DNA from: Planktothrix paucivesiculata PCC 9631
Lineage (GTDB): Bacteria; Cyanobacteriota; Cyanobacteriia; Cyanobacteriales; Microcoleaceae
Length of the DNA stretch: 40,322 nucleotides
Reading direction: 5' to 3'
NCBI RefSeq assembly: GCF_900009265.2
Contig: NZ_LR734982.1
Location: 1 to 40,322 of the forward strand
Part shown: one piece after another, positions 8,183-36,884 of the stretch
Layout of the letters: each line of letters opens with the position of its first letter
How positions within the stretch are numbered: position 1 is the stretch's first letter
The notes under the pieces: generated by a model
Database searches by the model: none
What the model saw: the letters and a program-made list of their open reading frames with translations, nothing else
What the model was told of the DNA's origin: nothing
Position numbers and translations under genes: made by a program

Positions 8183-8269
8183 CGTTTATTTTAGCCTTGG
8201 ACGTAGAAGGTTGACTTAGCCGGCAATTAAAAAGATATGGGAATAATTGCGGTTTTAGCTAAAATCATT

Positions 8270-8629: not shown

Positions 8630-8748
8630 TTGCTATTATCAGTAATCAGTGTAGAAACTTCACGATCGCACTGGGTGTACCAGTCATCACTTCAGAGGAA
8701 AGTTTACAGTTACTATTAATCAATAAAATCGAGATTTTATTTCTTCCA

Positions 8749-8778
8749 CTGATAACTGATAACTGATAACTGATAACT
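8749..8778. repeat. Short tandem repeat, unit CTGATAA
   Basis: Just over four copies of the heptamer CTGATAA sit directly downstream of the ppa stop codon. The same family, in both orientations, is found around 18858-18899 and 19011-19044 beside tig. Confidence 0.85.
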
Positions 8779-8780
8779 AA

Positions 8781-9296: not shown

Positions 9297-9424
9297 GAAT
9301 CGTTCTCCAAGCTTAGACAATCATTAAAATCGGGGAAAGATCCCCTCTATAATTCTAAGGCGGATGGGGATTTCCTCCAAGGGGGGTTAGGGCTGACAAG
9401 CGATCGGGCTTTTGCGTTTCCCGA

Positions 9425-10066
9425 TTAACTCACATCAATTCCCCGACCCTTTTGATTAAACTCTATAACGGTTTGTTCTGATAATTCATGGGTTGTCATA
9501 GCAGTTAAAATTTCTAAGGGTAAGGTTAAATGATAAGCCCCGGCTTGTAGGGTTTCTGCGGCTTCCTGGGGGGATTTAATACTCGCGGCCAGAATTTTGG
9601 TAGGGCTTCCTGCTAATATCTGGTTCATCTGTTTGACTAATCCAATGCCATCTCCTAATAATCGAGTTGCCCGATTTACATAGGCGATCGCATATTTTGC
9701 CCCCGCTTCCATCGCCACGGCGGCTTGAGCAGCACTATAAATAGCAGTCACAGAACAGGGTATTTCTGGAGATAAATAGGCAACGGTTTGAAATCCCACG
9801 GAGGTCGCTGGAATTTTTAAAACCGTTTGTTCTCCTAGTAATTCAAAGGCTTTTTTTCCTTCTCTTACCATTCCTTGAAAATCCGATGCTATTAACTGAT
9901 AATAGATTTCCCCCGAAATTAATTGTTTTAACTGTCTCAAAGTTTCTTCAGGAGATAATTCACTTTTAGCTAATAAAGTAGGATTAGTTGTAATTCCCTT
10001 CACCCATCCCCAATCTTTCACCATTTGTGCTTCCGAAATAATTGCCGAATCCAAATATAAACCCAT
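9425..10066 (-). CDS. Transaldolase-family protein (fructose-6-phosphate aldolase-like)
   Basis: A 213-residue TIM-barrel aldolase of the small transaldolase/FSA subfamily, expected to be cytosolic and to act on sugar phosphates. The N-terminal LYLDSA supplies the conserved Asp6, GITTNPTLLAK (24-34) is the family signature, and the Schiff-base lysine is Lys84 in TVLKIPAT. The following VTAIYSAAQA and ILAASIKSPQEA segments also fit FSA. Full-length transaldolases are much longer (over 300 residues), so this is the short form; whether it cleaves fructose 6-phosphate or transfers dihydroxyacetone cannot be decided here. The gene is monocistronic in appearance, with repeats upstream. Confidence 0.9.
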   Translation of the reverse strand: MGLYLDSAIISEAQMVKDWGWVKGITTNPTLLAKSELSPEETLRQLKQLISGEIYYQLIASDFQGMVREGKKAFELLGEQTVLKIPATSVGFQTVAYLSPEIPCSVTAIYSAAQAAVAMEAGAKYAIAYVNRATRLLGDGIGLVKQMNQILAGSPTKILAASIKSPQEAAETLQAGAYHLTLPLEILTAMTTHELSEQTVIEFNQKGRGIDVS

Positions 10067-10140
10067 AGATTTAATTCTTTTTAGGTGTTGAGTGTTGATT
10101 ATTGATTTCTGTTAGTCTGTTAGTCAGCGAGCGGGGACGC

Positions 10141-10211
10141 TCCCCCTGCTCCCCCTGCTCCCCCTGCCTCCCCCTGTTCCCTGTTCCCTGTTCCCTGTTC
10201 CCTGTTCCCTG
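10141..10211. repeat. Low-complexity tandem repeat (CCCCCTGCT and CCCTGTT units)
   Basis: The spacer between the transaldolase-family gene and the DUF218 gene consists of CCCCCTGCT-like units that pass into five or so copies of CCCTGTT. The latter is the reverse complement of the AGGGAAC array at the window start. No coding signal is seen. Confidence 0.88.
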
Positions 10212-10213
10212 AT

Positions 10214-10870
10214 TTATGACATTCCTTCAAACGGCCCTAAAAAGGTCGGTTTGGGGCGAACAATATGCAGTTCTAAGATAGCTTTAATTACGGCTAAAAC
10301 TTCCCGTTGGGTATAGAATCTCATGGAATCATCCCGAAATTTTCCCCAGTCTGGTGTTCCTAAGCCCACGGATTCTACACCCAATTGGTTGCAGGTATAA
10401 ACCGCCCGGGGAAGATGATATTTTTGAGTAATTAAAACCGCCCTTTCTATGCCAAAAATAGCTTTAGCCCGATAACAACTTTCATAGGTACTAAATCCAG
10501 CATAATCTAATCTAATATCTTTATTCGGAACTCCCAAACGTTCTGCATATTGCTGCATTGCCACCACTTCATTATATTCGGGAGTACCATTATCCCCCGT
10601 CATTAATATTTTATGAACTCGCCCCAAACGATATAATTCCACTGCCCCTTCTACCCGATCTGCTAACATAGGTGTGGGGGTTCCGTCCGCCCAAACTCCT
10701 GCCCCAAACACAATCGCCACGGGTTTATTCGGGACGGTTTCCGGTTGCGTAAATCGGCGATTATTCGTAACAGTTTTAATATAAATCGTCAACAAAAAAG
10801 GGACTAATATTGTTCCTAAAACCATTAATATACCCAGAAAACGCCAGTGCAAGATAAACCATTTAGGCAT
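10214..10870 (-). CDS. DUF218 family protein (SanA/ElyC/YdcF-like), membrane-anchored
   Basis: A 218-residue protein with one N-terminal membrane segment (about 9-31) and a DUF218 domain facing the outside. Family landmarks are VAIVFGAGVWADGTPTP (about 51-67), LADRVEGAVELY, ILMTGDNG, YAGFSTYESCYRAK and VLITQKYHLPRA. SanA of E. coli is linked to vancomycin exclusion and envelope integrity, and ElyC to cell-wall precursor lipid carriers; the molecular reaction is poorly defined. Length and architecture are closest to SanA. It has about 60 bases to cobU on the same strand, so readthrough is possible, but no functional link to cobalamin is apparent. Confidence 0.88.
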   Translation of the reverse strand: MPKWFILHWRFLGILMVLGTILVPFLLTIYIKTVTNNRRFTQPETVPNKPVAIVFGAGVWADGTPTPMLADRVEGAVELYRLGRVHKILMTGDNGTPEYNEVVAMQQYAERLGVPNKDIRLDYAGFSTYESCYRAKAIFGIERAVLITQKYHLPRAVYTCNQLGVESVGLGTPDWGKFRDDSMRFYTQREVLAVIKAILELHIVRPKPTFLGPFEGMS

Positions 10871-10933
10871 AAGATTGAAGTTAACCGTGGTAGAGACAAA
10901 GTTTAGCTTAGGAATAGGGTATCAGCAAAGCGG

Positions 10934-11497
10934 TTATTTTGACTCCAAGGGTGAACCCAATTGGGTCAAATTCAAAACATAACCCCCTGTCACCAGATAA
11001 ACGGAGTCCGCTATCGCCCCTAAATGACGCACTAACGCCCCTAAACGATCGCGGAAGGTTCTACCCATGGGATATGCGGGAACCACTCCCCATCCAGTTT
11101 CTTCGGCTACTAAGATGATCATTCCTGGAAGTTTATCTAATATTTGTAATAATTGATACTGCGTATTTTCCCAGGTAACTTCATCTTGTTCCAGCAAATT
11201 AGCTAACCAAGTTCCCAAGGAATCGACTAAAATACAAGTATTTTGACCCGATATTTTTTCTAAGGTTGCAGTTAGGTCTATCGGAACTTCTAAAATTTCC
11301 CAGGAAATGGGGCGACGTTCTTGATGTTTTTGAATCCTAATTTGCCATTCTTGATCCATTGGATCTCGTTGAGAAGTTGCAATATAAATCACTTGTTTTT
11401 CAGACTGTTTGGCTAAGGTTTCCGCCCATTCACTTTTCCCTGAACGGGCTGGGCCAGTTACTACTATTAATTCAGAAGGAATAATTAAAGAACTCAT
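10934..11497 (-). CDS. cobU: Adenosylcobinamide kinase / guanylyltransferase
   Basis: A 187-residue cytosolic enzyme of the cobalamin nucleotide-loop pathway. It phosphorylates adenosylcobinamide and then transfers GMP to it. The P-loop GPARSGKS lies at 15-22, the loop with the likely guanylylated His58 is in RIQKHQERRP, and the Walker B-like ILVDSLGTW with Asp92 follows. VAEETGWGVVP and GRTFRDRLG near the C-terminus are CobU signatures. Only one base separates its ATG from the stop codon of the upstream DUF5009 gene, which indicates translational coupling. No other cobalamin genes are in the window. Confidence 0.94.
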   Translation of the reverse strand: MSSLIIPSELIVVTGPARSGKSEWAETLAKQSEKQVIYIATSQRDPMDQEWQIRIQKHQERRPISWEILEVPIDLTATLEKISGQNTCILVDSLGTWLANLLEQDEVTWENTQYQLLQILDKLPGMIILVAEETGWGVVPAYPMGRTFRDRLGALVRHLGAIADSVYLVTGGYVLNLTQLGSPLESK

Positions 11498-11498
11498 A

Positions 11499-12938
11499 TT
11501 AAGTTTTCCAAAATAATTTTAATCTTGTACACAAACTTACAAATAAAGCTATAATTAAAGTGTAAGATAATCCGCGCAAAAATCCCAGGGTTGGAGTATT
11601 AGTTAGGGCTTCAATTTTAGTAGTCCAACCTTTTAGTTCTAAAATCGGCCATAATAAATTAGCAAAGGCGACATAACCAATCATCGGATTTTTACCCGTA
11701 TCAATGAATAACTGAAACCAGGGTTTTTGCCGGAAACCGTCAATCAAAATTGTTAAGATAATTAACAGAAAAATAGCGATCGCCGTGGTAATAAAAAAAT
11801 AACTCATCGTGGCGGGATCTTTTTTTATTCCTCCTTGATAGGGTTCAAAAGCTAATCCTAAAATTAACCCATACATTCCCCATTGATACATCTGATATAA
11901 TAACATTTCTAGGGGATGGTTAGGTTCCCTGAGTAAGCGATAACTAAAAAGCAATAAAATTAAACTAATTCCTGTGGTTTGGGGGAGTAAGCGAGATTGT
12001 AAACCAATGAGTAAATTTAAAATAATTAATCCCATGACAACCACAATTCCAATTAAGCGAAATTGGTTCCAATTTTTGGGGATATCTTGATCCTCAACTT
12101 GTTGATAATTAATGATTTCTTCTCCTACAAAAGTTCCGGGGATCGCAATAAATAAATATTTTAAATATTCAAATTTATATAACCAAGGAATCGGGGATAT
12201 TGATAGAATATCTGTTATCCATCCTCCGGCGGATTTCGAGAGAATTAAACCTAATAAAACTCCCAGTAACCCGATCCTAAATTGGGGATAATTTCGAGTG
12301 AATAGCCAAATCAAAGAAGTAAAAACAATAATATTAGTTAAGACTAATAAAATAATATCACTACGATAGAGAGAAAATTGAGGAAATTTGAGATCATGGG
12401 GGTATTTAATATGAGTTAAAATTGCGATCGCAGCCCCCCAACCCATTAAATTTAAACCCAAATTCAACCATTTAGGAATAAACTTAGGTAATTGTACAAA
12501 CATTAAAAATAATATCGTAAATCCAATTAAGGCGAGTTGCCATTTTTCGGAATTAGGTTCAGGACTAATAACTGTTGGTCTAAAATGTTGTAAAACAATC
12601 GCAAAAGTTGCTAATAAAAATCCCCGTTTTAAAATTCCTATAATGATATCAACAGTTTTCCATCCTTGAGATAACCGTCGAGATAAGGCTAAAGGAATCG
12701 CTATTCCTAAAGAAAATAGAAAAATAGGAAAGACTAAATCTACCCAAGTTAGTCCAGATACTTTAGGATTAAATTGATGGTTAGGAGGTGGAAATTGGGC
12801 GTGATACATCCAAGGCGGTAAAGTTCCATTAAAAGGAATTACACCGGATAAAACCATCGCTAAAACCGCTATCCCTCGCAAAGCATCTAAGGCTTCTATA
12901 CGTGGAAAACTGGATCGATATTGATAGGCTAATTTCAT
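11499..12938 (-). CDS. DUF5009 / NagX-HGSNAT-like membrane acyltransferase homolog
   Basis: A 479-residue polytopic inner-membrane protein with about ten hydrophobic helices. The N-terminal RIEALDALRGIAVLAMVLSGVIP and LTWVDLVFPIFLFSLGIAIPLAL are the hallmark of the COG4299/DUF5009 family, related to heparan-alpha-glucosaminide N-acetyltransferase and bacterial NagX. C-terminal DTGKNPMIGYVAFANLLW also fits. Members are thought to move acetyl groups across a membrane onto sugars, but the bacterial substrates are mostly unknown. It is translated just ahead of cobU with a single intervening base. A candidate minus-strand promoter with an extended -10 lies near 13013-13043. Substrate and biological role remain open. 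Confidence 0.82.
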   Translation of the reverse strand: MKLAYQYRSSFPRIEALDALRGIAVLAMVLSGVIPFNGTLPPWMYHAQFPPPNHQFNPKVSGLTWVDLVFPIFLFSLGIAIPLALSRRLSQGWKTVDIIIGILKRGFLLATFAIVLQHFRPTVISPEPNSEKWQLALIGFTILFLMFVQLPKFIPKWLNLGLNLMGWGAAIAILTHIKYPHDLKFPQFSLYRSDIILLVLTNIIVFTSLIWLFTRNYPQFRIGLLGVLLGLILSKSAGGWITDILSISPIPWLYKFEYLKYLFIAIPGTFVGEEIINYQQVEDQDIPKNWNQFRLIGIVVVMGLIILNLLIGLQSRLLPQTTGISLILLLFSYRLLREPNHPLEMLLYQMYQWGMYGLILGLAFEPYQGGIKKDPATMSYFFITTAIAIFLLIILTILIDGFRQKPWFQLFIDTGKNPMIGYVAFANLLWPILELKGWTTKIEALTNTPTLGFLRGLSYTLIIALFVSLCTRLKLFWKT

Positions 12939-13012
12939 TAGGGTAAATCGTCTATTTCTTAACCACTAACGGATGGTAAATCATCAATCATACCCCCTTT
13001 TTGTTAACTTTT

Positions 13013-13043
13013 ATTATAGCAGAATCATCCTAATTTTTTGCAA
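13013..13043 (-). promoter_or_regulatory. Candidate promoter for the DUF5009-cobU pair
   Basis: On the minus strand, TGCTATAAT (an extended -10; the hexamer is 13013-13018) is preceded by TTGCAA at 13038-13043. The spacer is 19 bases, longer than ideal. It lies about 75 bases upstream of the DUF5009 ATG in otherwise featureless AT-rich DNA. Confidence 0.4.
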
Positions 13044-13140
13044 AAATATCAATAGAAAATTTGGCTCAGTGATTCGTTATATCAGAAAAGATAACTTAAA
13101 GGGGTAAGGATTAAAGTTGTTTCAAATTGATGAAACTAGA

Positions 13141-13530
13141 TTAACTTCCACCGGCTGCAATACCCAATATAATAGCGGCAATTAAACCAATTGCCATAAA
13201 GATTACAGCAATCAAGAATAGCCAATATTGCAGAGTATAAAGTTTCCGCAATTGTCCCAGAGCACCCATCAAATTTTCAATATCATTTCCTTGGGTATCA
13301 ACAATTAATTGAAACGCTTTTGCAGCATTAATTGTCCAAATTCCAGTGATTAATAAAATAACTCCCTGTACCAGTCCGCCAAATCCTCCCTTTAACACCA
13401 TAATAAGTCCAGTAATTGCCCCTAATACCCCACTGGCAATCAGAAAGTAACTCACAAACATCATTTTTTTAGACAAATCCAAAATCAGTTGATTCTGAGA
13501 TTCATTAAACTCATAAGTTCCGTTGTCCAT
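13141..13530 (-). CDS. Small membrane protein, possibly DUF5362-like
   Basis: A 129-residue protein of unknown function. A hydrophilic N-terminus (about 1-22) is followed by three hydrophobic helices at about 25-45, 51-68 and 102-126, the last two separated by a polar loop (about 70-97) with QGNDIENLMGALGQLRKLY. Glycine-rich helix faces suggest tight packing. It recalls small cyanobacterial membrane proteins annotated DUF5362, but I am not sure of this. ATG is preceded by AGGGGA, a good ribosome-binding site. The gene is divergent from the pentapeptide-repeat gene across 183 bases. Confidence 0.78.
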   Translation of the reverse strand: MDNGTYEFNESQNQLILDLSKKMMFVSYFLIASGVLGAITGLIMVLKGGFGGLVQGVILLITGIWTINAAKAFQLIVDTQGNDIENLMGALGQLRKLYTLQYWLFLIAVIFMAIGLIAAIILGIAAGGS

Positions 13531-13615
13531 AATTTCCCCTGAAAAAAAGTTAAGTTAATTACAGCTTAATTTTACTCCTATTTTCTAAAATGGCAATCAT
13601 TCAGTTAAAAAACTC

Positions 13616-13643
13616 TTGTCACTTCTGCTGTCTGTGATAGAAT
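13616..13643 (+). promoter_or_regulatory. Sigma70-type promoter for the pentapeptide-repeat gene
   Basis: TTGTCA (13616-13621) and TAGAAT (13638-13643) are separated by 16 bases, and TGA just before the -10 gives an extended -10 element. Transcription would start near 13650, a few bases before a strong hairpin. Confidence 0.6.
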
Positions 13644-24928: not shown

Positions 24929-25543
24929 ATGGCTAAGTACAACCGTCTCGACAAAGACAATGCGGCAGCGCTTCTGGTCGATCATCAAACTGGACTCTTC
25001 TCTCTTGTCAATGACTATGGCCCCAGTGAATTCAAAAACAATGTGTTAGCTCTTGCCAGTACAGTTAAGTTCTTTGAATTGCCAACGATCCTGACTACTA
25101 GCTTTGAAAATGGCCCTAATGGCCCTCTCATTCCTGAACTGAAGGGGATGTTTCCCGATGCTCCCTACATTGCTCGTCCAGGACAAATCAATGCTTGGGA
25201 CAATGAGGACTTCGTGAAGGCAGTAGCGGCAACAGGAAAGAAGCAATTGATTATTGCAGGAATTGTCACTGATGTCTGTGTGGCATTTTGCGCTCTATCA
25301 GCATTGGAAGCAGGATATGAAGTTTTTGCCGTAACCGATGCTTCTGGTACTTTCAATGAATCTTGTCGCCATGCGGCTTGGGATCGAATGTCTAGTGCAG
25401 GTGTGCAATTAGTTAATTGGTTTGCTGTTGCTTGCGAACTGCATCGCGATTGGCGAAATGATATCGAAGGACTCGGTAACCTGTTGGGAAATTATATCCC
25501 CAACTACAAAAATCTGATGACTAGCTACTCGGCGAAGAATTAA
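24929..25543 (+). CDS. Isochorismatase-like hydrolase, YcaC type
   Basis: A 204-residue cysteine-hydrolase-fold protein of the isochorismatase superfamily. Asp18 (LLVDHQTG) and the nucleophile position Cys117 in VTDVCVAF are present, with the cis-peptide GIVT just before it. ILTTSFENGPNGPL, YIARPGQINAWDNEDF, DASGTFNE and ACELHRDWRNDI make it very similar to E. coli YcaC as I remember it, whose substrate is unknown and which forms ring octamers. The sequence AAGGAAG lies upstream of the ATG. The gene is boxed in by a palindromic repeat and an IS630 remnant, and such close similarity to a proteobacterial protein suggests possible lateral transfer. Confidence 0.9.
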   Translation: MAKYNRLDKDNAAALLVDHQTGLFSLVNDYGPSEFKNNVLALASTVKFFELPTILTTSFENGPNGPLIPELKGMFPDAPYIARPGQINAWDNEDFVKAVAATGKKQLIIAGIVTDVCVAFCALSALEAGYEVFAVTDASGTFNESCRHAAWDRMSSAGVQLVNWFAVACELHRDWRNDIEGLGNLLGNYIPNYKNLMTSYSAKN

Positions 25544-25544
25544 T

Positions 25545-25665
25545 TTAGGTGAAACCATCATCCCTATAAGATTTGGCATACAAACATTTCTTTTTTACGA
25601 ATTTCCAAAGATGCTCAATCAAATTGAAATTAGGAGAGTAGGACGGCAAATAAAAAAAATATTCA
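25545..25665 (-). pseudogene. IS630-family transposase, C-terminal remnant
   Basis: The minus strand encodes about 39 residues ending at TAA 25545-25547: YLPSYSPNFNLIEHLWKF then KKKCLYAKSYRDDGF. LPxYSPxxNxIExxW is the signature around the final catalytic Glu of the IS630 DDE domain. Upstream, the frame runs into the AAACCGGGTT repeat hairpin, so the rest of the transposase is missing. This half is not the complement of the N-terminal fragment at 14599-14682 in position; they are two separate relics. Confidence 0.75.
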
Positions 25666-25704
25666 GAAACCGGGTTAATCGAAAGAAACTCGGTTTCTTT
25701 TTTT
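25665..25704 (+). terminator. Rho-independent-type terminator
   Basis: AGAAACCGGGTT (25665-25676) pairs with AACTCGGTTTCT (25687-25698), 12 pairs including one G-U, around a 10-base loop, and is followed by a T-run to 25704. It lies between the ycaC-like gene and the kinase operon. The stem shares sequence with the dispersed AAACCGGGTTTCT repeat. Confidence 0.6.
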
Positions 25705-25724
25705 CGGGGAATTTCGGATTAAAA

Positions 25725-25730
25725 TATAAT
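25725..25730 (+). promoter_or_regulatory. Candidate -10 element for the signalling operon
   Basis: A consensus TATAAT in AT-rich sequence lies 69 bases before the first kinase ATG and after the terminator hairpin. No convincing -35 is present, and no Shine-Dalgarno precedes the ATG, so this is tentative. Confidence 0.35.
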
Positions 25731-25798
25731 ATCAGAATTAGCGATCGCCATCCAGAAATTACGGGTTCCAATTTTTCTAGTTTATAGTTACTTAAAAT

Positions 25799-28210
25799 AT
25801 GAACTTATTCAATCAGAGGGTTTTTCGTGATTTAAACCCCGAAATATCAAGAATTATTATTTTGAATATTTCCTTGGGAATTGCCTATGCTATCGGTACA
25901 AAAATTAGTCTAAGTATCGCATCACTGCATGGAATATCTGCCATTTGGTTGCCTTCGGGAATGACTTTAGCTGCATTTCTTTTATTCGGCTCAAAAATAT
26001 TTCCGGCTATCGTTTTTGGTTCAGTGATGGGACTGATTAATGTCTTTAATTCGACTGGATCTTTACTAGATATTTTTATTCTGAATATGGGTTGTATTTT
26101 AGGAAATTATTTACAACCCTTCTGCGCTACATTTGTTATTAAAAAATATAGCAATATTCAAACATTATTTATTAGTATTAATGGAATTATTGTATTTATA
26201 ATAACTGGTTTTTTCTCTCCCATAATTTCCGCAGTTATTATCATTATCACTGGTGTTTATACGGGGTTTTATCCAGCAGAAAATTACTGGGTTCCTTTAT
26301 TAACAATTTGGATAGCGAGTGGGTTGACCCATTTAATTTTTACTCCGGTATTTTTAATTAATAAAATTCCTTCTGTTTCGGGGAAAGACAAGATTAAGCC
26401 CCGGGTTAAATTATTTATTCTATTGTTCGTTATCATTGCAACAAGTATAATTTTTTGGGTGACTTTTGTAAAAAATTATTCCGTTGAATATATTCTATTA
26501 CTTCTGCTAATTTTAACGGTTTTTACCCTCGGTAAAAAGTTTTCGATTTTGATGGTGGCAATCGTTTCTTCTCTGGCTATTATTGCTACAACTTTAGAAT
26601 TTGGCCCTTTTGTCAAATCATCAATTAACCAATCATTATTACTATTACAATCATTTATTGGGGTTTTTTCGGTCGCTTCTTTAATCTTATCGGCCATTAT
26701 TGATGAAAAACAACAGGCGACTAATAAACTAGAATTAACCCTAGCTAATTTAGAAAATACTATCAAAGAGCGAACATTGCAGCTAGAAACAGCTAAGGAA
26801 AAAGCCGAAGTTGCCAATCAAGCTAAAAGTACCTTTATTGCTAATATGAGTCATGAATTGCGATCGCCTTTGAATGCCATTCTGGGTTTTTCTCAATTAA
26901 TGTTACGTTCTCATAATCTCCCATCCGATCAATATGAAAATATAGGTATTATTTATCGCAGTGGAGAATACTTACTGACATTAATTAATAATGTTCTGGA
27001 TTTATCCAAAATAGAAGCCGGAAAAACCACCCTAAATCCCGCTAATTTTGACTTATATCAATTATTAGATGATTTAGAAGATATGCTCAATTTACGAGCT
27101 AGTAATGCTGGATTAAAATTGATCTTTCAACGGAGTGAAACTATTCTTCGCTATATCTACGCCGATGAAGTTAAATTGCGTCAAGTCTTAATTAATTTAC
27201 TCAGTAATGCGATTAAATTTACTCCAGAAGGAGGAATTACCTTAACGGTTTTTCAGGAAGAAGAAAACTCAACGGATGTTGTCACCATCAATTTCCAAGT
27301 CCGCGACACCGGAGTGGGAATTTCTCAGGCAGAATTACCTAAACTTTTTGAAGCTTTTACCCAAACCCAAGCGGGGAAAGAATCGCAAGAAGGCACGGGT
27401 TTAGGATTAGCCATTAGTCGGAAATTTGTGCAACTGATGGGCGGAGATATTACAGTAAAAAGTCAACTCGGTCAGGGCACAACCTTTTCATTTCAAATTC
27501 AAGCTAAACCCGGTAAAAATATTAACGATGAACCGCTTAAAACCAGAAAAAGAGTATTAGGTTTAGCTCCTGGTCAAGCGACTTATAAAATTCTAACTGT
27601 TGATGATAAAGAAATTAATTGTCTATTATTAATTAAACTTTTAGAACCCTTGGCATTTGAGTTAAAAACAGCTAGTAATGGAGCAGAAGCGATCGCAATA
27701 TGGGATGAATGGGAACCCCATTTAATCTTTATGGATATGCGAATGCCCGTGATGGATGGTTATGAAGCGACAAAACAGATTAAATCAACTACCAAAGGCA
27801 ATGCTACGGCTCTAATTGCTGTAACTGCTAGTGTATTAGAAGAAGAAAAGGCTATTGTATTATCGGCGGGGTGTGATGATTTTATGAGAAAACCTTTTAC
27901 AGAAGATCAGATTTTTGAGGTTTTGGCTAAACATTTAGGGGTTAAATATATCTATGCAGAAATCCAGCCTATTGTAGATATAAACTCAGAGAAGGAGTTA
28001 ATTTCTGAGGATTTAACAGTCATGTCTCAGGAGTGGATGAATCAACTCTATCAAGCCTCAATTGAAGCCAATAGTCAAGCTGTGATAGAATTAATTGCAG
28101 AAATTCCCGAAACAGAGATTTATTTAATCGAATTTCTAACCAAGGCAGTGCGTAAATTTCAATTTGAACAGATAATTAATTTAGCAGAACCTTTGATCGG
28201 CAATGATTAA
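25799..28210 (+). CDS. MASE1 hybrid histidine kinase (copy A of the operon)
   Basis: An 803-residue membrane kinase. Residues 1-300 form a MASE1-type sensor with about eight helices; HGISAIWLPSGMTLAA and LFGSKIFPAIVFGS are typical. A coiled coil (about 305-345) leads to HisKA with His352 in [13 protein letters not shown] box LLSNAIKF (Asn470), G1 RDTGVGI, G2 EGTGLGLAI, then a receiver (about 596-715) with Asp646 in [11 protein letters not shown] and Lys698. After it comes a 65-residue helical C-terminal segment without histidine, similar to an Hpt bundle in outline only. It is the first gene of a five-gene operon, 17 bases from the solute-binding lipoprotein gene. The transmitter is nearly the same as in the kinases at 29215 and 31901. 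Confidence 0.94.
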   Translation: MNLFNQRVFRDLNPEISRIIILNISLGIAYAIGTKISLSIASLHGISAIWLPSGMTLAAFLLFGSKIFPAIVFGSVMGLINVFNSTGSLLDIFILNMGCILGNYLQPFCATFVIKKYSNIQTLFISINGIIVFIITGFFSPIISAVIIIITGVYTGFYPAENYWVPLLTIWIASGLTHLIFTPVFLINKIPSVSGKDKIKPRVKLFILLFVIIATSIIFWVTFVKNYSVEYILLLLLILTVFTLGKKFSILMVAIVSSLAIIATTLEFGPFVKSSINQSLLLLQSFIGVFSVASLILSAIIDEKQQATNKLELTLANLENTIKERTLQLETAKEKAEVANQAKSTFIANMSHELRSPLNAILGFSQLMLRSHNLPSDQYENIGIIYRSGEYLLTLINNVLDLSKIEAGKTTLNPANFDLYQLLDDLEDMLNLRASNAGLKLIFQRSETILRYIYADEVKLRQVLINLLSNAIKFTPEGGITLTVFQEEENSTDVVTINFQVRDTGVGISQAELPKLFEAFTQTQAGKESQEGTGLGLAISRKFVQLMGGDITVKSQLGQGTTFSFQIQAKPGKNINDEPLKTRKRVLGLAPGQATYKILTVDDKEINCLLLIKLLEPLAFELKTASNGAEAIAIWDEWEPHLIFMDMRMPVMDGYEATKQIKSTTKGNATALIAVTASVLEEEKAIVLSAGCDDFMRKPFTEDQIFEVLAKHLGVKYIYAEIQPIVDINSEKELISEDLTVMSQEWMNQLYQASIEANSQAVIELIAEIPETEIYLIEFLTKAVRKFQFEQIINLAEPLIGND

Positions 28211-28227
28211 AAAATATCGCTTATACT

Positions 28228-29205
28228 ATGCTTAAACTCCTTAGATACATTAGTATTTCTCTGATTACCGTCTGTTTGTTATTTGCTTGTCATGCTTCAG
28301 TACCAATTAAAGTAAAACACCCTCCCTTGAAAGTGGTATTTACATCTTTTGTTGGGGAGCATTCAGGCATCATTGCTCAAGAAAAAGGATTTTTCAAAGC
28401 CCAAGGGGTAGATGTGGAACTAATTTATAAACAATACATCCAATTGGAAATGGCAAATTTCAGTGCGGGTAAGTATGATGGCATGGTATTGACCTTGGGA
28501 AGTTTTATCAACTTGAGTGCCACAAATCCAGATATACAAGGTGTCGTGGTTATAAATGAATCAACAGGAGCAGATGTGGTAGTCGCCCAATCGCAAATTA
28601 AAACCGTCGCTGACTTAAAAGGTAAAAAATTGGGTGCAAATCTAGGCGGTTTTAGCGAAATTTTCGTGACTGAAATGTTGAAAACTGCCAACTTAACCAG
28701 CGATGATGTGAACTTGGTTAAAGTAGAGGCTTCAGAAATTCCTCAACACCTGAAAAATAATGCTATTCAAGCCGGACACACTTGGGAACCCCATCTTTCT
28801 GAAGCCATTAAATTAGGGGGGAATATTTTATTTACCAGCAAACAAACTCCTGGCTTGATATTAGATATGATTATCTTTCGCAGTGAGATAATCCGCGATC
28901 GCCCCGAAGATGTTCGGGCATTTGTACGAGGATGGCTAGAAGGCTCTGCCTACTGGAAAGCAAATGTTCAGGAAGGAAATGCTATCATTAGTAAAGCGTT
29001 AAAAATTCCTCTTAATACAATCTATTTGGAGGGAGTCAACCTAACTGATTTAAGTGAAAATCAAAAATTATTTCAATCTAGCAACCCTAATTCCATTTAC
29101 AAAACTGCCAAGATCTATGCAGACTTTTTTATTCGCTCTGGAAACGTAACGCGCATTCCTAAGCTAAAAAGTTTGTTCAATTCTTCTTTCTTAAACCCTC
29201 CCTAA
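28228..29205 (+). CDS. Solute-binding lipoprotein, NMT1/TauA-like, without transporter genes
   Basis: A 325-residue periplasmic binding protein of the NitT/TauT (ABC transporter substrate-binding, type 2 fold) class. The signal ends in the lipobox LFAC, with lipidation expected at Cys21. PLKVVFTSFVGEHSGIIAQEKGFFKAQGVDVELIY (about 33-67) is the usual start of the mature domain; AGKYDGMVLTLGSF and VADLKGKKLGANLGGFSEIF are ligand-pocket segments, and FVRGWLEGSAYW is typical further on. No permease or ATPase gene is nearby. Instead it lies between two kinase genes, 17 and 9 bases away, so it probably delivers a ligand signal to a kinase sensor. Ligand is unknown: taurine, sulfonate, nitrate, bicarbonate and pyrimidine-type binders all belong to this class. 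Confidence 0.9.
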   Translation: MLKLLRYISISLITVCLLFACHASVPIKVKHPPLKVVFTSFVGEHSGIIAQEKGFFKAQGVDVELIYKQYIQLEMANFSAGKYDGMVLTLGSFINLSATNPDIQGVVVINESTGADVVVAQSQIKTVADLKGKKLGANLGGFSEIFVTEMLKTANLTSDDVNLVKVEASEIPQHLKNNAIQAGHTWEPHLSEAIKLGGNILFTSKQTPGLILDMIIFRSEIIRDRPEDVRAFVRGWLEGSAYWKANVQEGNAIISKALKIPLNTIYLEGVNLTDLSENQKLFQSSNPNSIYKTAKIYADFFIRSGNVTRIPKLKSLFNSSFLNPP

Positions 29206-29214
29206 TGTAAAGCC

Positions 29215-31872
29215 ATGCAGCATTCCCTTTTGGGCGGTATCCGTACAAAGTTGATCGCCTCCTTTCTGATTGTTTCTTTGAGTCCGTTGCTGCTATTGGC
29301 ATTTCTCGACAAACAGACAACTGAAAAAGCACTAACTGATAACGCCAAACAAGCCCTCTCGACGGCGGCTAACGAAACCTCTAACAGAATAGATGCCTTT
29401 ATTGATGCAAATCTCGATGCCGTGCGCGTAGAGGCGATTTTACCCGGTTTTGCCCGTTACCTCAGCCTAACTCCAAAACAGCGAGTTGACAGCCCCGAAA
29501 TGCAATTGGCGACAGAAACATTAATCCGTCTCAGTCGCAAAGATATGATCAATGTTATCTCATATTCTTTGCTCGACTTAAACGGAAAAAATGTATTGGA
29601 TACATATACATCAGATATTGGCAAAGATGAATCGGATCAAGATTACTTTAAAAAACCCCGGCAAACTGGGTTATCTTTTGTTTCTAACATGAAGCGATCG
29701 CCGACAATTCCTGACCTGGTAACGCTCTATTTTAGCAGTCCAGTTCGCAATGCCAAGGGAGATATATTGGGTGTATTGCGTGTTTCATACAATGCTACTG
29801 TTGTTCAACAATTAGTAACTCGACAAACTGAACGGGCTGGGGCAAAATCTTTTGCTATTCTGTTAGATGAAGATAATATTTATCTGGCACATAGCACTGC
29901 ACCAGAACTGCTTTTTAAATCTATCGTGCCTTTGCCTGCCGATGTTTTAACTCAACTGCAACAAGAAGGGCGTTTATCTAATTCTCCTGTTAAGGAATTG
30001 GCAACTAATGAGCCAAAACTTCAGCAAGCATTGGATCATAAACAGTCATATTTAATTGCATCTTTGGCAGCAACAGATAATCAGGTTAATTTGATTGCGA
30101 TCACTCGTTTAAAATATAAACCTTGGTCTGTGTTGTTCGCCCGGCCCCTTGCTGTTGCCCTAGCACCCGTAGAAAAGCAAATGCGTGATGCAATATTTCT
30201 ATTGGTATTGATCGCGGGAGTAGTGACAATCATCGCTTTTGCCATTGGGCAACTACTAACAAAGCCAATAATTAACCTTACCAATATAGTTTCCCATTTT
30301 ACCGCAGGTAACTTAAATATTCGCGCCAAAACCAACTCAAAAGACGAAATAGGTCAACTGGCAAAATCGTTTAACAACATGGCACTTCAGTTACAAACAT
30401 CTTTTGAAACCTTAGAACATCGGGTAGACGAACGCACAGCAGAGTTAGTTATTGCCAAGGAAAAAGCCGAAGTTGCTAATCAAGCCAAAAGTAACTTTAT
30501 TGCTAATATGAGTCACGAATTGCGATCGCCCTTAAATGCCATTTTAGGCTTTTCTCAAGTCATGTTAAGAAGCCCCGATCTCCCCTCGAAACAATCGGAA
30601 AATGCCGGAATTATTTATCGCAGTGGTGATTATCTATTAACCTTAATTAATAATGTTTTAGATTTATCTAAAATTGAAGCGGGAAAAACCACATTAAATC
30701 TAACTAATTTTGACCTGTATCGGTTATTAGATGATTTAGAAGATATGCTAGATTTACGAGCTAGTAATGCCGGATTAAAATTAATCTTTCAACGGAGTGA
30801 AAATGTCCCTCGTTATATTTGTACCGATGAAGTTAAATTGCGTCAAGTTTTAATTAATTTACTCAGTAATGCGATTAAATTTACCCAAGAAGGGGGTATT
30901 ACCTTAACGGTTTTTCAGGAAGAAGAAGACTCAACAGACGTTATTAGCTTAAATTTTAAAATCCGCGATACGGGTGTAGGAATTTCTGAGGCAGAATTAC
31001 CTAAACTTTTTGAAGCCTTCACCCAAACCCAAGCGGGGAAAGAAGCCCAAGAAGGCACGGGTTTAGGATTAGCTATTAGTCGGAAATTTGTGCAACTGAT
31101 GGGGGGAGATATTACTGTTAAAAGTGAATTAGGAAAAGGCACAACCTTCTCGTTTCAAATTCAAGCCAAACCGGGTGAGAATATCAACGATGAATCCATA
31201 AAAACCCGGCAAAAAGTATTGGGTTTGGCTCCGGGTCAAGCGACTTATAAAATTCTAACTGTTGATGATAAAGAAATTAATTGTCTATTATTAATTAAAC
31301 TTTTAGAACCCTTGGGATGGGAAATGAAAATAGCCCGAAATGGAAAAGAAGCGATCGCAATATGGGAAGAATGGGAACCCCATTTAATCTTTATGGATAT
31401 GCGAATGCCCGTGATGGATGGCTATGAAGCCACAAAATATATTAAATCAACTACAAAAGGTAATGCTACGGCTGTAATTGCTCTAACTGCTAGTGTTTTA
31501 GAAGAAGAAAAAGCCATTGTGCTTTCAGCCGGCTGTGATGATTTTATTAGAAAACCTTTTAATGAATCGGTCATTTTTGAGGCTCTGGCTAAACATTTAG
31601 GTGTAGAATATATCTATACAAAAACCCCCTTTAGTTCAGATCATCATTCAGACAAAGAGATAACTGATCATGATTTAAAGACCATGACTCCAGAATGGAT
31701 TAACCAACTTTACAGAGCCGCTTTAGAAGCCGATTCTAACCGAGTTCTGGAACTAATGATAGATATTCCCGATTCAGAGATTAATTTAAGACAATTTCTG
31801 GCCAAGGCGGTGCGTTTATTTCAATTTGAGCAGATCGTTGATTTAACTGAAGCGTTAATCAATCATGATTAA
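29215..31872 (+). CDS. Cache-HAMP hybrid histidine kinase (copy B of the operon)
   Basis: An 885-residue membrane kinase. TM1 is about 13-31 and a double-Cache-like extracytoplasmic domain about 35-320 ([30 protein letters not shown], then [15 protein letters not shown]). TM2 is about 326-346, HAMP about 347-400, then coiled coil. HisKA has His434, followed by the ATPase with GTGLGLAI and a receiver with Asp728 in [11 protein letters not shown]. From about residue 413 ([13 protein letters not shown]) the protein matches copies A and C almost residue for residue, while the sensor is unrelated: a clean sensor swap. It ends in the same Hpt-like C-terminal segment. The binding lipoprotein gene is 9 bases upstream, and its product could dock on this Cache domain. 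Confidence 0.94.
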
Positions 31873-31900
31873 CCCTGGGTTTATTAAATCTTAAAAAAAT

Positions 31901-34321
31901 ATGAAATTATTTAATCAGGAAGTTTTTCGTTATCAAAAATCACAATTATTCAAGCTGATTGTGATTAATATTTGTTTGGGAATTGCTTACCTTCTGGGAG
32001 TAAGATTTAGCATCAATGTTACATCTGTCCATGGTTCTTCTGCGATTTGGTTGCCCGCAGGTATGGTTTTAGCTGCTGTCATGTTATTCGGTTCAAAAGT
32101 ATTTCCAGCAATTGCTTTTGGTTCAATAGTAGGATTAATTGATAACCATAGTTCCATAAATTCATTTACGAATTTGATTTTGATTAATGTCGCTTGTATT
32201 TTAGCCAATTATTTACAACCTTTATTTATTACATTACTACTTAAAAAATATACTAATATTAAAAATTTATTTAATAGTATTAATGGAGTAATTACTTTTT
32301 TTATTTTATCCTGCTTTTTGGTTCCCATATTGTCCCCGATTCTGATCGTTAATACTGCTGTTTATATCGGGTTATATTCAGCCGAAACTTACTGGAGTTC
32401 TTTCTTTACAATGTGGGCATCTAGTGCCTTGGGTCATGTAATTTTTACTCCCCTATTTTTAATTCATACTATTCGTCCTGTCCCGGGATCAAAGAAACTG
32501 CCCTCGAAAATCAAATTATCAATAATCGGCTTTGTGATCATCGGTACAATTTTAATTTTATGGATAACTTTTATCAAAAATATTTCTGTTGAATATATTT
32601 TCTTGCTCTTACTGATTTTAACTGTATTTACTTTAGGTAAAAAGTTTTCGATTGTGATGGTAGCCATTGTTTCCTGCGTGAGTATTATTGCCACTTCCCT
32701 AGGATTAGGCCCTTTTGTCAAAGCCTCACCGAATCAATCTCTATTTTTAGTTCAATTATTTATTGGGGTTTTTGCGGTCACTTCTCTGATTCTATCCGCC
32801 ATAATTGATGAAAAGCAAAAAGCAACTAATAAATTAGAATTAACTCTGGGTAATTTAGAAGATACAGTCAAAGAACGAACGTTACAACTGGAAAAAGCCA
32901 AGGAAAAAGCTGAAGTTGCCAATCAAGCCAAAAGTACCTTTATTGCTAATATGAGCCATGAATTGCGATCGCCTTTGAATGCGATTTTAGGCTTTTCTCA
33001 AATCCTACTCAGGACGCCCAATCTTCCCCCGGAAAATTTAGAAAATGCCGGAATTATCTATCGGAGTGGGGAGTATCTCTTAACCTTAATTAATAATATT
33101 CTGGATTTATCGAAAATAGAAGCGGGAAAAATCACCTTAAATCCCACGGATTTTAATTTATATCAATTGTTAGATGATTTAGAAGATATGTTGCACCTGA
33201 GAGCAGCGAATGCGGGATTGAATTTGATATTTAAGCGAGATTCGTCAGTTACCCAATATATTTATACCGATCAGATTAAGCTGCGTCAAGTTTTAATTAA
33301 TTTACTTAGTAATGCGATTAAATTTACCCCCGAGGGTGGGGTGACTTTAACGGTGCTTCAACGAGAAACCCAAGACACCGATAGCGCCCTATTGGAGTTT
33401 GAAGTTCGGGACACGGGGGTGGGAATTTCTCCCCAAGAATTGCCAAAACTCTTTCAGGTATTTACTCAAGCCCAAGCAGGAAGGGAATCCCAAGAAGGGA
33501 CGGGTTTAGGATTAGCCATTAGTCGGAAATTTGTCCAATTAATGGGGGGACAAATTCAAGTCGAAAGCCAATTGCATCACGGGACAACCTTTAGATTCCA
33601 AATTCAAGCCCAACGGGGTCAAAATTCCCAGGATAAGCCAACGGCAGCCAAACGGATTGTATTGGGTTTAGTCAAGGGTCAACCGACCTATAAATTGCTA
33701 ACAGTTGATGACAAAGAAGTGAATCGAAAATTATTAATAAAACTTTTAGAACCCCTAGAATTTGAGGTAAAAGAAGCCAGAAATGGACTAGAAGCGATCG
33801 CAATTTGGAACCAATGGGAACCCCATTTAATTTTTATGGATATGCGAATGCCCGTGATGGATGGCTATGAAGCCACTAAATATATTAAATCCACAACAAA
33901 AGGCAATGCTACGGCTGTAATTGCTCTAACTGCTAGTGTTTTAGAGGAGGAAAAAGCTATTGTGCTATCCTCTGGATGTGATGATTTTATTAGAAAACCC
34001 TTTACCGAGCATAATATTTTTGAGACACTCACCAAACATTTAGGTGTAAGATATATTTATTCAGAAACAAAGCCCTCTGTGTCGGATGTTACTGTAGATA
34101 GTAGCTTGACATCTCAACAATTAACCTGTATGCCTAAAGAGTGGATAATTGAGCTATATCAAGCTACTCTTGAAGCAAATACGGGTCTAGTTATGCAGTT
34201 AATCACACAAATTCCTGATATAGAAACTCATTTGATACAATCCCTTACACAACTTGTACGTAAATTTGAATTTGAACAGATTATTAACTTAGTTGAAACG
34301 CTCATTAGTCATGAATCCTGA
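31901..34321 (+). CDS. MASE1 hybrid histidine kinase (copy C of the operon)
   Basis: An 806-residue paralog of copy A with the same order: MASE1 sensor (1-300), coiled coil, HisKA (His353 in [11 protein letters not shown]), ATPase, receiver (phospho-acceptor near Asp647 in [11 protein letters not shown]) and a C-terminal helical segment with WIIELYQATLEANTG. The MASE1 half has diverged more from copy A than the transmitter has. In the receiver it shares long identical DNA stretches with copy B rather than A. It ends 11 bases inside the diguanylate cyclase gene (ATG 34311, TGA 34319-34321), so translation is coupled and phosphotransfer to that protein's receiver is plausible. Confidence 0.94.
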   Translation: MKLFNQEVFRYQKSQLFKLIVINICLGIAYLLGVRFSINVTSVHGSSAIWLPAGMVLAAVMLFGSKVFPAIAFGSIVGLIDNHSSINSFTNLILINVACILANYLQPLFITLLLKKYTNIKNLFNSINGVITFFILSCFLVPILSPILIVNTAVYIGLYSAETYWSSFFTMWASSALGHVIFTPLFLIHTIRPVPGSKKLPSKIKLSIIGFVIIGTILILWITFIKNISVEYIFLLLLILTVFTLGKKFSIVMVAIVSCVSIIATSLGLGPFVKASPNQSLFLVQLFIGVFAVTSLILSAIIDEKQKATNKLELTLGNLEDTVKERTLQLEKAKEKAEVANQAKSTFIANMSHELRSPLNAILGFSQILLRTPNLPPENLENAGIIYRSGEYLLTLINNILDLSKIEAGKITLNPTDFNLYQLLDDLEDMLHLRAANAGLNLIFKRDSSVTQYIYTDQIKLRQVLINLLSNAIKFTPEGGVTLTVLQRETQDTDSALLEFEVRDTGVGISPQELPKLFQVFTQAQAGRESQEGTGLGLAISRKFVQLMGGQIQVESQLHHGTTFRFQIQAQRGQNSQDKPTAAKRIVLGLVKGQPTYKLLTVDDKEVNRKLLIKLLEPLEFEVKEARNGLEAIAIWNQWEPHLIFMDMRMPVMDGYEATKYIKSTTKGNATAVIALTASVLEEEKAIVLSSGCDDFIRKPFTEHNIFETLTKHLGVRYIYSETKPSVSDVTVDSSLTSQQLTCMPKEWIIELYQATLEANTGLVMQLITQIPDIETHLIQSLTQLVRKFEFEQIINLVETLISHES

Positions 34322-35729
34322 TTTAGTCGCAGAGAACAAAGGGAATATTCTTCTGGTTGATGATCTGCCAGAGAATTTACAATTACTAAGTGATTTGTTA
34401 ATTAAACTTGGCTATACAGTTCGCAGTGTCACCAGTGGTAGAATGGCACTCAAAACCGTTAAAGTTAAGCAACCTGATGTTATTTTTTTAGACATTAAGA
34501 TGCCAGAAATGGACGGTTATCAGGTGTGTCAAGCTCTGAAGGCTGATGAGAATTTATCCCATATTCCGATTATTTTTATTAGTGCTTTAAACGACGTTTT
34601 TGATAAAGTTAAGGCATTTCAGTCTGGGGGGATTGACTATATTACTAAACCCTTTCAAGTCGAAGAAGTTGTGGCGCGTTTGGAAAGTCAGTTAACTATT
34701 CAACGACAAAAAAGACTTCTGGAACAGGAAATTATTAAACGCCGAGACGCGGAGGAAGTGTTATACCAATCCCGGGCACTGTTATCAAGTATATTAAATA
34801 GTTCCCTGGATGGTATTGCCGCCTTAGAAGCCCTGCGCGAACCCGAAACCGGAGAAATTAAGGATTTTAGGTGTTTAGTAGTTAACCCGATCTTAGCGAA
34901 GGTTTTTGACCGCACTCGGGAAGATATGATCGGTAAAATTATCCTCAGAAGACTCCTAAATCGGATTCAACCGGAACTGTTTTATCGTTTTGTTAAAATT
35001 GTTGAAACTGGGGAATCCTTAGAACAGGATATTTACTATCCCGTTGGGGACTCCTACTGGTATCATTTTGTCGCCGTCAGGTTAGGGGATGGTTTTGCCA
35101 TTACCATTCGCGATATTACCGCCCGCAAAAAAATTGAATTAGCCCTGCAAGAAGCCAATCAAAAATTAAAAGAACTCGCTAATGTCGATAGTTTAACTCA
35201 AATCGCCAATCGTCGCTGTTTTGATGGCCGTCTGCAAAGGGAATGGGAGGTTTTAGCCCAACAACAACGACCCTTGACCTTGATTATGTTTGATCTCGAC
35301 GGGTTCAAATCCTATAACGACCATTATGGTCATCTGGCGGGGGATGATTGTCTCGTCCAGATCTCTCAAGCCGTCTATCAATGTACTCGCCAGCAGGATT
35401 TGCGCCGCCCCATTGACCTCGTGGCCCGTTATGGGGGAGAGGAATTTATTGTCCTTTTATCAGCGAAGGATTTAGCCACAGGAATTCAGGTTGCAGAACG
35501 AATTCAGCAGGCGATTTACCGTTTAAAAATTCCCCATGAATACTCCCATGTTAAGGAAATTGTGACCGTCAGTTTGGGGATTGGTTCGGTTATCCCCAGT
35601 TTAGAAGTTCAGCCCAATTACTTAATTCAATTAGCTGATCAGGCATTATACGATGCTAAACAACAGGGACGCGATCGCTATTGTATTAGTAGTAGTTGTC
35701 ATCAGAAACAGGAAGTAGGAAATAGTTAA
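34311..35729 (+). CDS. REC-PAS-GGDEF diguanylate cyclase
   Basis: A 472-residue cytosolic response regulator that should make cyclic-di-GMP from GTP. The receiver (about 11-130) has DD17-18, Asp61 in FLDIKMPEMDG, and ITKPF. A PAS-like domain follows (about 152-280). The GGDEF domain (about 290-460) has DSLTQIANRRCFD, MFDLDGFKSYND and the active-site variant GGEEF at 375-379. An RPID motif five residues before GGEEF is a complete RxxD inhibitory site, so product feedback is likely. The frame is open six codons further upstream (34293), but ATG 34311, overlapping the stop of the preceding kinase, matches the REC start. It is the likely output of the operon. Confidence 0.93.
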   Translation: MNPDLVAENKGNILLVDDLPENLQLLSDLLIKLGYTVRSVTSGRMALKTVKVKQPDVIFLDIKMPEMDGYQVCQALKADENLSHIPIIFISALNDVFDKVKAFQSGGIDYITKPFQVEEVVARLESQLTIQRQKRLLEQEIIKRRDAEEVLYQSRALLSSILNSSLDGIAALEALREPETGEIKDFRCLVVNPILAKVFDRTREDMIGKIILRRLLNRIQPELFYRFVKIVETGESLEQDIYYPVGDSYWYHFVAVRLGDGFAITIRDITARKKIELALQEANQKLKELANVDSLTQIANRRCFDGRLQREWEVLAQQQRPLTLIMFDLDGFKSYNDHYGHLAGDDCLVQISQAVYQCTRQQDLRRPIDLVARYGGEEFIVLLSAKDLATGIQVAERIQQAIYRLKIPHEYSHVKEIVTVSLGIGSVIPSLEVQPNYLIQLADQALYDAKQQGRDRYCISSSCHQKQEVGNS

Positions 35730-35804
35730 CGGATAATAAATAAAGATTTATTGACTCAAAAAATAAGGTAAACTGAACAGTGGTTAATGTAAGCTCCACT
35801 TTTC

Positions 35805-36884
35805 ATGACAAATCCCGCTCCCCCCGAAATTAATCCCAATCTTTGGCCGCAATTATTACAACAACTGTTAGACCGCCAATCCCTTTCTGTAACCCAAGCC
35901 TCACAATTAATGCAGGGATGGCTCCTAGAAACAGTTCCCCCCGTCCTTTCCGGGGCGATTTTGGCAGCGATACAAGCCAAAGGCGTCTCCGCCACGGAAT
36001 TAACCGGAATGGCCGCGGTTTTACAATCCTTTGGTTCCTCGGATACCGCCACAACAACCAATTCCGGCATCATTTCCAACTACCGTGTAATTGATACCTG
36101 CGGCACCGGGGGCGATGGAGCTTCCACCTTCAATATTTCCACTACCGTTGCCTTTGTCGCCGCGGCGGCGGGGGTTCCGGTGGCAAAACATGGAAATCGT
36201 TCCGCATCGAGTAAAGTTGGCTCTGCGGACGTCTTAGAAGCCCTGGGCGTCAACCTCAAAGCCCCCAGCGAAAAAGTCAAACAGGCGTTATCAACGGTCG
36301 GAATCACCTTTTTATTCGCCCCCGGTTGGCATCCCGCCCTCAAAGCCGTGGCCCCCCTGCGTCAAACCCTGAAAGTCCGAACCGTCTTTAATCTATTAGG
36401 GCCCCTGGTCAATCCCCTATATCCTACTGGACAAATCATTGGGGTTTTTGACCCAACAATGCTGCCCATCATTGCCCAAGCCCTAAACCAACTTGGGACA
36501 GAAGTGGCGATCGTTTTACATGGACGGGAAAAACTTGATGAAGCGGGCTTAGGAGATATCACCGACTTAGCGATTTTATCCCAAGGGAAGGTTAAAACAG
36601 CCACCCTCAGCCCCCAGGACTTAGGATTAACTCCCGCCCCCCTAACCGCCCTCAGAGGGGGAGAGGTGCAGGAAAATTCGGAGATTCTGAAAAATTTATT
36701 ACAGGGAAAAGGCACACAAGCACAAAAAGATGTGGTAGCCCTGAATGGGTCTTTAGCCTTACAGGTTGCGGGTGTTGTACCCATGGGCGACCATCAGCAA
36801 GGAATTCATTTAGCTCAAGAGATTTTACAAAGTGGTGCGGCTTGGTCAAAACTGGAAGAATTGGTTAAATTTCTTCAGGATTAA
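35805..36884 (+). CDS. trpD: Anthranilate phosphoribosyltransferase
   Basis: A 359-residue enzyme that transfers phosphoribose from PRPP to anthranilate, the second committed step of tryptophan synthesis. The PRPP loop is [15 protein letters not shown] (99-113), KHGNRS lies at 128-133, and [12 protein letters not shown], the [13 protein letters not shown] segment and the DE-containing [10 protein letters not shown] metal-binding region are present. No other trp gene is adjacent, consistent with scattered trp genes in cyanobacteria. It begins 75 bases after the diguanylate cyclase stop, with no Shine-Dalgarno, and is probably a separate unit. Confidence 0.97.

Follow-up and report, generated by a model that had tools for sequence, protein, structure and literature searches.

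We have analysed a stretch of 40,322 nucleotides from Planktothrix paucivesiculata PCC 9631 (contig NZ_LR734982.1, hereafter the window) and found that its positions 25799-35729 carry a sensory gene cluster of five plus-strand open reading frames (ORFs), as established from the ORF list and the translations. Our reading of this cluster, to which we give a probability of roughly 0.7, is that it works as an array of sensors acting on a single diguanylate cyclase: a ligand-loaded solute-binding protein (SBP) would signal through a dCache sensor to a kinase, from there to a receiver and finally to the synthesis of cyclic diguanosine monophosphate (c-di-GMP), with two MASE1 kinases as further inputs and with sensors that are exchanged by recombination. 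Judged by comparison with related loci, the window is a place where two separable modules, one for input and one for output, meet.

The first gene, HK1 (25799-28210, 803 amino acids, aa), encodes a hybrid kinase for which Pfam gives the architecture MASE1-HisKA-HATPase-REC, the same as for HK3 (31901-34321, 806 aa). Between both lie the gene of an orphan NMT1/SsuA-like solute-binding lipoprotein (SBP, 28228-29205, 325 aa), with an NMT1 match of 81.7 bits for a cut-off of 20.5, and HK2 (29215-31872, 885 aa), a dCache-HAMP-HisKA-HATPase-REC hybrid kinase that we presume to be the partner receptor of the SBP. The last gene, DGC (34311-35729, 472 aa), codes for a REC-PAS-GGDEF response regulator in which REC and GGDEF are recognized by Pfam and the PAS_4 match is slightly below threshold (22.0 bits, cut-off 23.1). 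The first-pass annotation had described five co-directional genes separated by 17, 9 and 28 bases and ending in an 11-base overlap, encoding two MASE1 kinases, a Cache-HAMP kinase, a binding lipoprotein and a REC-PAS-GGDEF protein, and our analysis confirmed both the layout and, with that one sub-threshold match, the domain make-up. The overlap between HK3 and the cyclase gene (34311-34321) requires that the latter starts at the ATG at 34311; the start in the ORF list is a TTG at 34293. RKPF was read in all three kinases and LDIKMP and GGEEF in the cyclase, so that the catalytic and phosphoacceptor residues are intact by sequence, and the GGEEF of the cyclase has an RxxD motif (RPID) five residues ahead; we take the kinase, receiver, GGEEF and RxxD motifs to have their usual functional meanings. 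The final ∼90 aa of each kinase (within 25799-34321) form a conserved tail behind the receiver, without a Pfam match and 47-52% identical among the three.

The REC-PAS part of the cyclase was searched in 61 genomes of the family, which gave 24 near-full-length matches of at least 71% identity in 21 genomes, a set that leaves out one partial match of 134 aa and weaker matches in further genomes. Many of these matches sit without an SBP. The upstream gene was read for 23 REC-PAS genes, the window included and the place in G036 excluded, and directly before 20 of them we found a hybrid kinase related in its core to those of the window (75-86% core identity to HK2) (among the 20, L194 has only a 161-aa piece of the kinase open and L189 has it split over two ORFs). 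The other three follow a gene for a REC-PAS-kinase, located itself after a core-family kinase. In 18 of the 20 pairs, that of the window among them, the kinase and REC-PAS genes share exactly 11 bases, L192 and L201 being different, and the sensors of the upstream kinases are SBP-type dCache, other dCache (according to Pfam) or MASE1. The earlier proposal that several inputs converge on one c-di-GMP output is thus supported, at the level of comparative genomics, by a conserved cyclase behind kinases of varying sensor. Not all of the REC-PAS genes read end in GGDEF: genes with a REC-PAS part 71-75% identical to that of the cyclase end in a histidine-kinase ATPase in L082, L192, L196, L197, L200 and L201 (by Pfam in L082 and L196), and a REC-PAS-kinase gene of this kind sometimes precedes the cyclase gene.

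At one site of the genus, five genomes share a cyclase that is 85-96% identical to that of the window and is preceded by inputs arranged in four different ways. Where this site is marked by rsmG upstream and TPR downstream, the inputs are an SBP and a dCache kinase in G047, two dCache kinases in G050 and G053, and a dCache kinase with a REC-PAS-kinase in G052; G051, which shares only the PIN/TPR side, has a MASE1 kinase before the cyclase. At the window's own site, G048 shows the order rnj, dCache kinase, MASE1 kinase, cyclase (96%) and trpD. The flank names used here (dapA, rnj, trpD, rsmG, PIN, TPR, and adhE) are putative labels that we assigned by reading the sequences.

Further support for a c-di-GMP output comes from two types of receptor-GGDEF fusion, which place the receptor directly on a GGDEF domain. 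In 27 of the 58 loci of a pattern-based set the SBP is accompanied by a dCache-HAMP-GGDEF protein without the kinase part, a form that occurs in many Nostoc. A GGDEF tree was built from 29 fused proteins, 12 locus cyclases and 28 other domains, these last including the window's own (L094) and otherwise consisting largely of the top-scoring domains of four genomes, not all of their GGDEF domains. It contains a clade of 39 with support 100/97 formed by 27 fused proteins, 11 stand-alone locus cyclases and the window, and by no other sampled domain, and within it the cyclase of L042 groups, with weak support, among the fused GGDEF domains. Three other genomes have 38, 22 and 26 GGDEF matches, and in each of them the domain at the locus comes closest to that of the window (65%), the next reaching 51-54%.

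The chimeric junction can be read directly from the sequence. In the alignment, the fused proteins match the kinase linker as far as '..AKEKAE' and continue with the cyclase linker at '(D)ANQKLE..GGDEF', and at the DNA level GCAAATCA is found at the junction point in both parent genes of L031 and in six of the seven fused genes compared. Among the 29 fused ORFs, 22 have the long junction, two a shorter one (L048 and L059) and two belong to a second type (L027 and L054), three being unmatched by the expression used. The simplest reading of these sequences is a deletion that would have joined the neighbouring HK2 and cyclase genes with the loss of the kinase, both receivers and the PAS domain. 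The second type has a different GGDEF domain, in a clade with L063 and L100, and behind the fusion of L027 and L054 there is a frame-broken piece of a kinase receiver and tail followed by a REC-PAS-GGDEF gene; this kinase relic suggests that the kinase form came first there. The fused genes of L027 and L045 are each split over two ORFs.

It could be argued that the SBP-HK2 pair and the MASE1 kinases serve other targets and lie near the cyclase only because related kinase genes enter, by recombination, sites where one copy is already present. The three kinases are in fact not independent, being 73-85% identical in their kinase parts and 84-87% in their receivers, and this likeness is enough for recombination alone to pile up copies. 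Four more kinase-core matches, 67-68% identical to that of HK2, stand close together and evenly spaced on another contig of the same genome (C149, 27021-36956), a REC-PAS-kinase can occupy the place of the cyclase, and in Planktothrix PCC 11201 the SBP and its receptor kinase are found without it. We nevertheless consider this explanation unlikely, as it has to face the 20 of 23 REC-PAS genes that follow such a kinase, the common overlap in 18 of these pairs and two kinds of fusion in which the receptor is set on a GGDEF domain.

The input module was followed in two collections. When 388 genomes of the class were searched with the lipoprotein at an E value of 1e-45, we obtained 22 matches in 20 genomes, and a same-strand dCache receptor comes after the SBP in 18 of the 22, a count that takes in G232 through the first of two tandem SBPs and G275 through a receptor piece at the end of a contig; one further SBP, that of G089, lies where its contig stops. 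Of the 58 loci of the pattern-based set, 53 have the receptor, and the rest correspond to one receptor without a dCache match, three contig ends and one locus in pieces; a 9-base gap separates SBP and receptor in 34 of the 54 loci having a receptor. Members of this set in which an SBP adjoins a dCache kinase come also from Chloroflexota (L068), Myxococcota (L073) and Thaumarchaeota (L076, L077, and L079). This association of lipoprotein and dCache receptor in 18 of 22 cases argues, on comparative grounds, for the original suggestion that one input passes through the binding protein. In some loci two or four tandem SBP genes precede a single dCache receptor (L069, positions 6871-13623, and L057, L060, and L070), as if several ligands fed one receptor.

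Export of the SBP and a periplasmic location of the receptor domain are supported by a cysteine at the lipobox position, conserved in at least 90% of 43 aligned relatives, and by the predicted placing of the dCache domain between two hydrophobic segments before HAMP. The nearest solved relatives are, by name, taurine, sulfonate, nitrate or bicarbonate binders together with THI5-type pyrimidine enzymes, a range that does not fix a predicted ligand class. QAGxTWxP was tried as a mark of the family and rejected, since IQAGHTWE had itself served as a search pattern; six SBP ORFs in five loci of the class sample (L148, L151, L153, L158, and L157, which is broken and counts with its two pieces) mismatch even QAxxTWxP. 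The genome has two further SBPs of the superfamily, in L089 (643-1650; contig C7) and L090 (9312-10316; contig C184), with 25-26% identity; they lack the QAGxTWxP motif and adjoin membrane kinases with HAMP.

The SBP could instead be a scavenging lipoprotein for a distant transporter, with no contact to the receptor, the dCache domain binding a ligand of its own. Most of the solved relatives are indeed transporter-binding proteins or enzymes. Moreover, in the 61 genomes of the family the SBP was found in 14 (E value 1e-50) and the dCache sensor, searched with the stretch 29311-30240 of HK2, in 18 (E value 1e-30, 19 matches), and the 19 matches comprise 13 with an SBP beside, that of G036 with its SBP on another contig and five with none in the stretches read. 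However, no ABC permease or ATPase gene was seen beside the SBP among the nine ORFs of at least 150 aa between 22928 and 39952 of the window, six of which were scanned for domains and three (at 22928, 35805, and 36944) judged by reading. The presence of the receptor behind the SBP in 18 of 22 cases, the tandem SBPs before one receptor and the pairs with dCache kinases in other phyla also speak against a scavenger, which we find improbable.

What the receptor is joined to has changed repeatedly. The 60 distinct receptors compared have a GGDEF output in 26 cases, a hybrid kinase in 18, a GAF-kinase in eight, SpoIIE in six and a PAS-nucleotide cyclase in two (named with Pfam for representatives and with home-made profiles for the remainder), and the tree of their sensors requires at least seven changes of output. 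The sensor is conserved irrespective of the output domain, with 40-90% identity to the HK2 probe stretch, and contains a conserved NLxAVRVEA segment. A two-part input of SBP and dCache is found joined to five output types. An SBP is upstream of all 60 receptors, a figure that is no test because the loci had been fetched through the SBP.

The exchange of sensor halves was inferred from identity profiles because the kinase tree is poorly resolved, 16 of its 29 inner branches being open and the grouping of L080 with L058 and L082 having a support of 84/88, unstarred. L080, from another genus, is 88.5% identical to the window in the sensor half and 72.6% in the kinase half, the latter being 83-84% identical to those of L058 and L082, and the change in identity is located around and beyond the border between HAMP and HisKA. 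A kinase half 91% identical to that of HK3 is present in both G048 and G051. In G048 it is combined with a different sensor, as the kinase ahead of the cyclase has a MASE1 domain 84% identical to that of HK1 versus 61% to that of HK3. Within the window, the MASE1 domain of HK1 is 60% identical to that of HK3 and its kinase is 85% identical to HK2 versus 77% to HK3, so HK1 is by these identities a mosaic of a MASE1 sensor and a kinase nearer to HK2.

The SBP itself is 84-91% identical to those of G006, belonging to another genus, and of three Nostoc genomes, in which TrpD is 70-71% identical; in two genomes of the Microcoleus type the values for SBP and TrpD are similar (72-74% and 70%). The flanks of the SBP loci differ between genomes. 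As TrpD is a single marker gene, these values make horizontal transfer likely without showing it. We lean, if narrowly, towards the view that the SBP and the sensor half form a mobile cassette that travels among cyanobacteria and becomes attached, through homologous recombination, to a resident output, so that one ligand signal may have been redirected to c-di-GMP or else to a phosphatase, a kinase or a nucleotide cyclase, and that the locus would record the removal of a phosphorelay leading to a one-step ligand-to-c-di-GMP receptor. A plasmid-borne cassette was rejected, as 28228-30400 had no match in the plasmid collection.

On these grounds, the proposed sensor array would operate as follows. 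The SBP would bind a small periplasmic solute and dock on the dCache domain of HK2, the signal passing through the second transmembrane segment and HAMP to the kinase, which would phosphorylate the receiver of the REC-PAS-GGDEF protein, either directly or by means of an Hpt protein made elsewhere, and thus change the synthesis of c-di-GMP in either sense. The two MASE1 kinases would feed other signals into the same receiver, a role proposed because the cyclase sits behind kinases of changing sensor. Recombination would swap the sensor halves between kinases, as the kinase halves are so alike, and in a Nostoc lineage it would have fused the receptor with the GGDEF domain next to it, so that the phosphorelay was lost. 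The genes, domains, adjacencies, chimeric proteins and exchanged halves behind this proposal are read from sequence; ligand binding, contact between SBP and receptor and phosphotransfer are predicted from them.

Several observations weigh against the array. No Hpt domain was matched by Pfam in the proteins of the locus, which makes the route of transfer from hybrid kinase to receiver a tentative one; the genome has 11 Hpt matches elsewhere, none inside the window, and an Hpt might act in trans. The twelfth locus cyclase of the tree, that of L063, has its GGDEF domain outside the clade of 39, and kinase and cyclase genes are spaced by 109 bases in that locus and by 133 in L042. The receptor kinase of PCC 11201 (L022) has no adjoining cyclase, and its cyclase is located elsewhere, behind a MASE1 kinase. 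The SBP has no adjoining receptor in three of the 22 class-sample cases (G113 twice and G064), and the dCache sensor has no SBP in the stretches read of G011, G028 and G029 (nucleotide-cyclase type) and of G040 and G055 (38% identity). Finally, an input module that is also found on SpoIIE, GAF-kinase and nucleotide cyclase outputs is not tied to c-di-GMP as such.

Pairs such as LuxP-LuxQ are examples of sensor kinases activated by an SBP. The proposed array can be compared with several published systems. SBP-activated receptors are an established class (PMC9602780), and in the corresponding sensor kinases the SBP gene adjoins the kinase gene and the loaded SBP activates the kinase (PMC9602780, PMC11113362), a likeness to the window, from which they differ in SBP family and output. 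In Salmonella, the periplasmic binding protein ArtI and the dCache_1 protein STM1987 are both needed for ligand-controlled c-di-GMP (PMC8846402), which resembles the fused SBP and dCache-HAMP-GGDEF form of Nostoc; ArtI is a putative arginine-binding protein, whereas the GGDEF domain of the window is part of a response regulator of its own, encoded behind a kinase. In Vibrio cholerae, NspS-MbaA also has a binding protein and a receptor controlling c-di-GMP, but it makes or degrades c-di-GMP itself upon polyamine binding and with no kinase relay (PMC8967002), unlike the window.

A likeness in gene order comes from another filamentous cyanobacterium, Anabaena sp. PCC 7120, where the hybrid kinase gene cdgK lies directly upstream of the receiver-GGDEF gene cdgS (PMC9927289); both are co-transcribed and phosphorylation has been proposed to raise the cyclase activity. 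CdgK, with CHASE, five PAS, GAF, two REC and Hpt domains, needs its own second receiver and Hpt (PMC9927289), whereas the three kinases of the window have MASE1 or dCache sensors, a single REC and no Hpt, and are accompanied by a binding lipoprotein; this comparison is one of architecture. RsbQ with the PAS domain of RsbP is a two-gene sensing module with phosphatase, histidine kinase and diguanylate cyclase outputs (PMC3183031), formed by a hydrolase and PAS instead of a secreted SBP and dCache, a pair that is joined to further outputs. Dgc2 was not used for comparison, having CHASE2, PAS and GGDEF and no receiver (PMC10581220). Among the top-ranked matches of our literature search there was no account of the present SBP-dCache pair and its five outputs nor of a short cut from kinase to cyclase. 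A search joining cyanobacteria, diguanylate cyclase, substrate-binding protein and Cache found nothing, and the one match for Planktothrix histidine kinases and c-di-GMP concerned Microcystis.

The comparison does not support the five genes as such as a conserved unit. The refuting check on relatives put forward in the first-pass annotation was run, and it counts against the exact five-gene order, seen only in the window and in no other locus compared, but not against the two sub-modules, SBP-receptor and kinase-cyclase, which were conserved; a fixed old operon is consequently rejected. A split of the window's order by rearrangement in PCC 11201 was also dropped, because its cyclase occupies the PIN/TPR-flanked site; the SBP place in G051 matches that of this strain. 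With 16 matches to the kinase core (E value 1e-100) and 42 GGDEF matches in the genome, an order not met in the other loci might be put down to chance, with signalling genes simply lying side by side in a genome rich in kinases. This is very improbable given the spacing conserved within the sub-units, SBP and receptor being 9 bases apart in 34 of 54 loci and the 11-base overlap occurring in 18 of 20 pairs. A scan of 25540-35900 for promoters and terminators gave 37 and 9 sites versus 34.6 and 8.5 in shuffled sequences, counts at about the shuffle level and thus neutral on a single transcript for the five genes.

The source genome (6.15 Mb in 184 contigs) is of the same genus as G051. The cluster is flanked upstream by dapA, rnj and a YcaC-type hydrolase (assigned from an NCBIfam match) and downstream by trpD. 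Between the YcaC gene and HK1, the minus strand (∼25551-25660) has the relic of a transposase C-terminus, reading ..YSPNFNLIEHLWKFVKKKCLYAKS.., which we take to be of the IS630 type. Also on the minus strand, at 2537-6601, there is a hybrid kinase of 925 aa, with a dCache-like sensor 41% identical to that of L022, adjoining a 427-aa REC-kinase whose receiver is 42% identical to the REC-PAS stretch of the cyclase.

These loci offer a natural series in which one input reaches its output by way of a kinase and a receiver or is connected directly to a cyclase, the junction being still visible, so that the loss of a phosphorelay and the exchange of sensors at a fixed output become testable with existing proteins. 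The short fused receptor of Nostoc would provide a one-step assay for identifying the solute, and c-di-GMP in Planktothrix and Nostoc is predicted to respond to an extracellular solute. Most likely, this is a locus of filamentous cyanobacteria in which a single c-di-GMP-making enzyme is fed by several membrane sensor kinases, including one that has an SBP as its partner.

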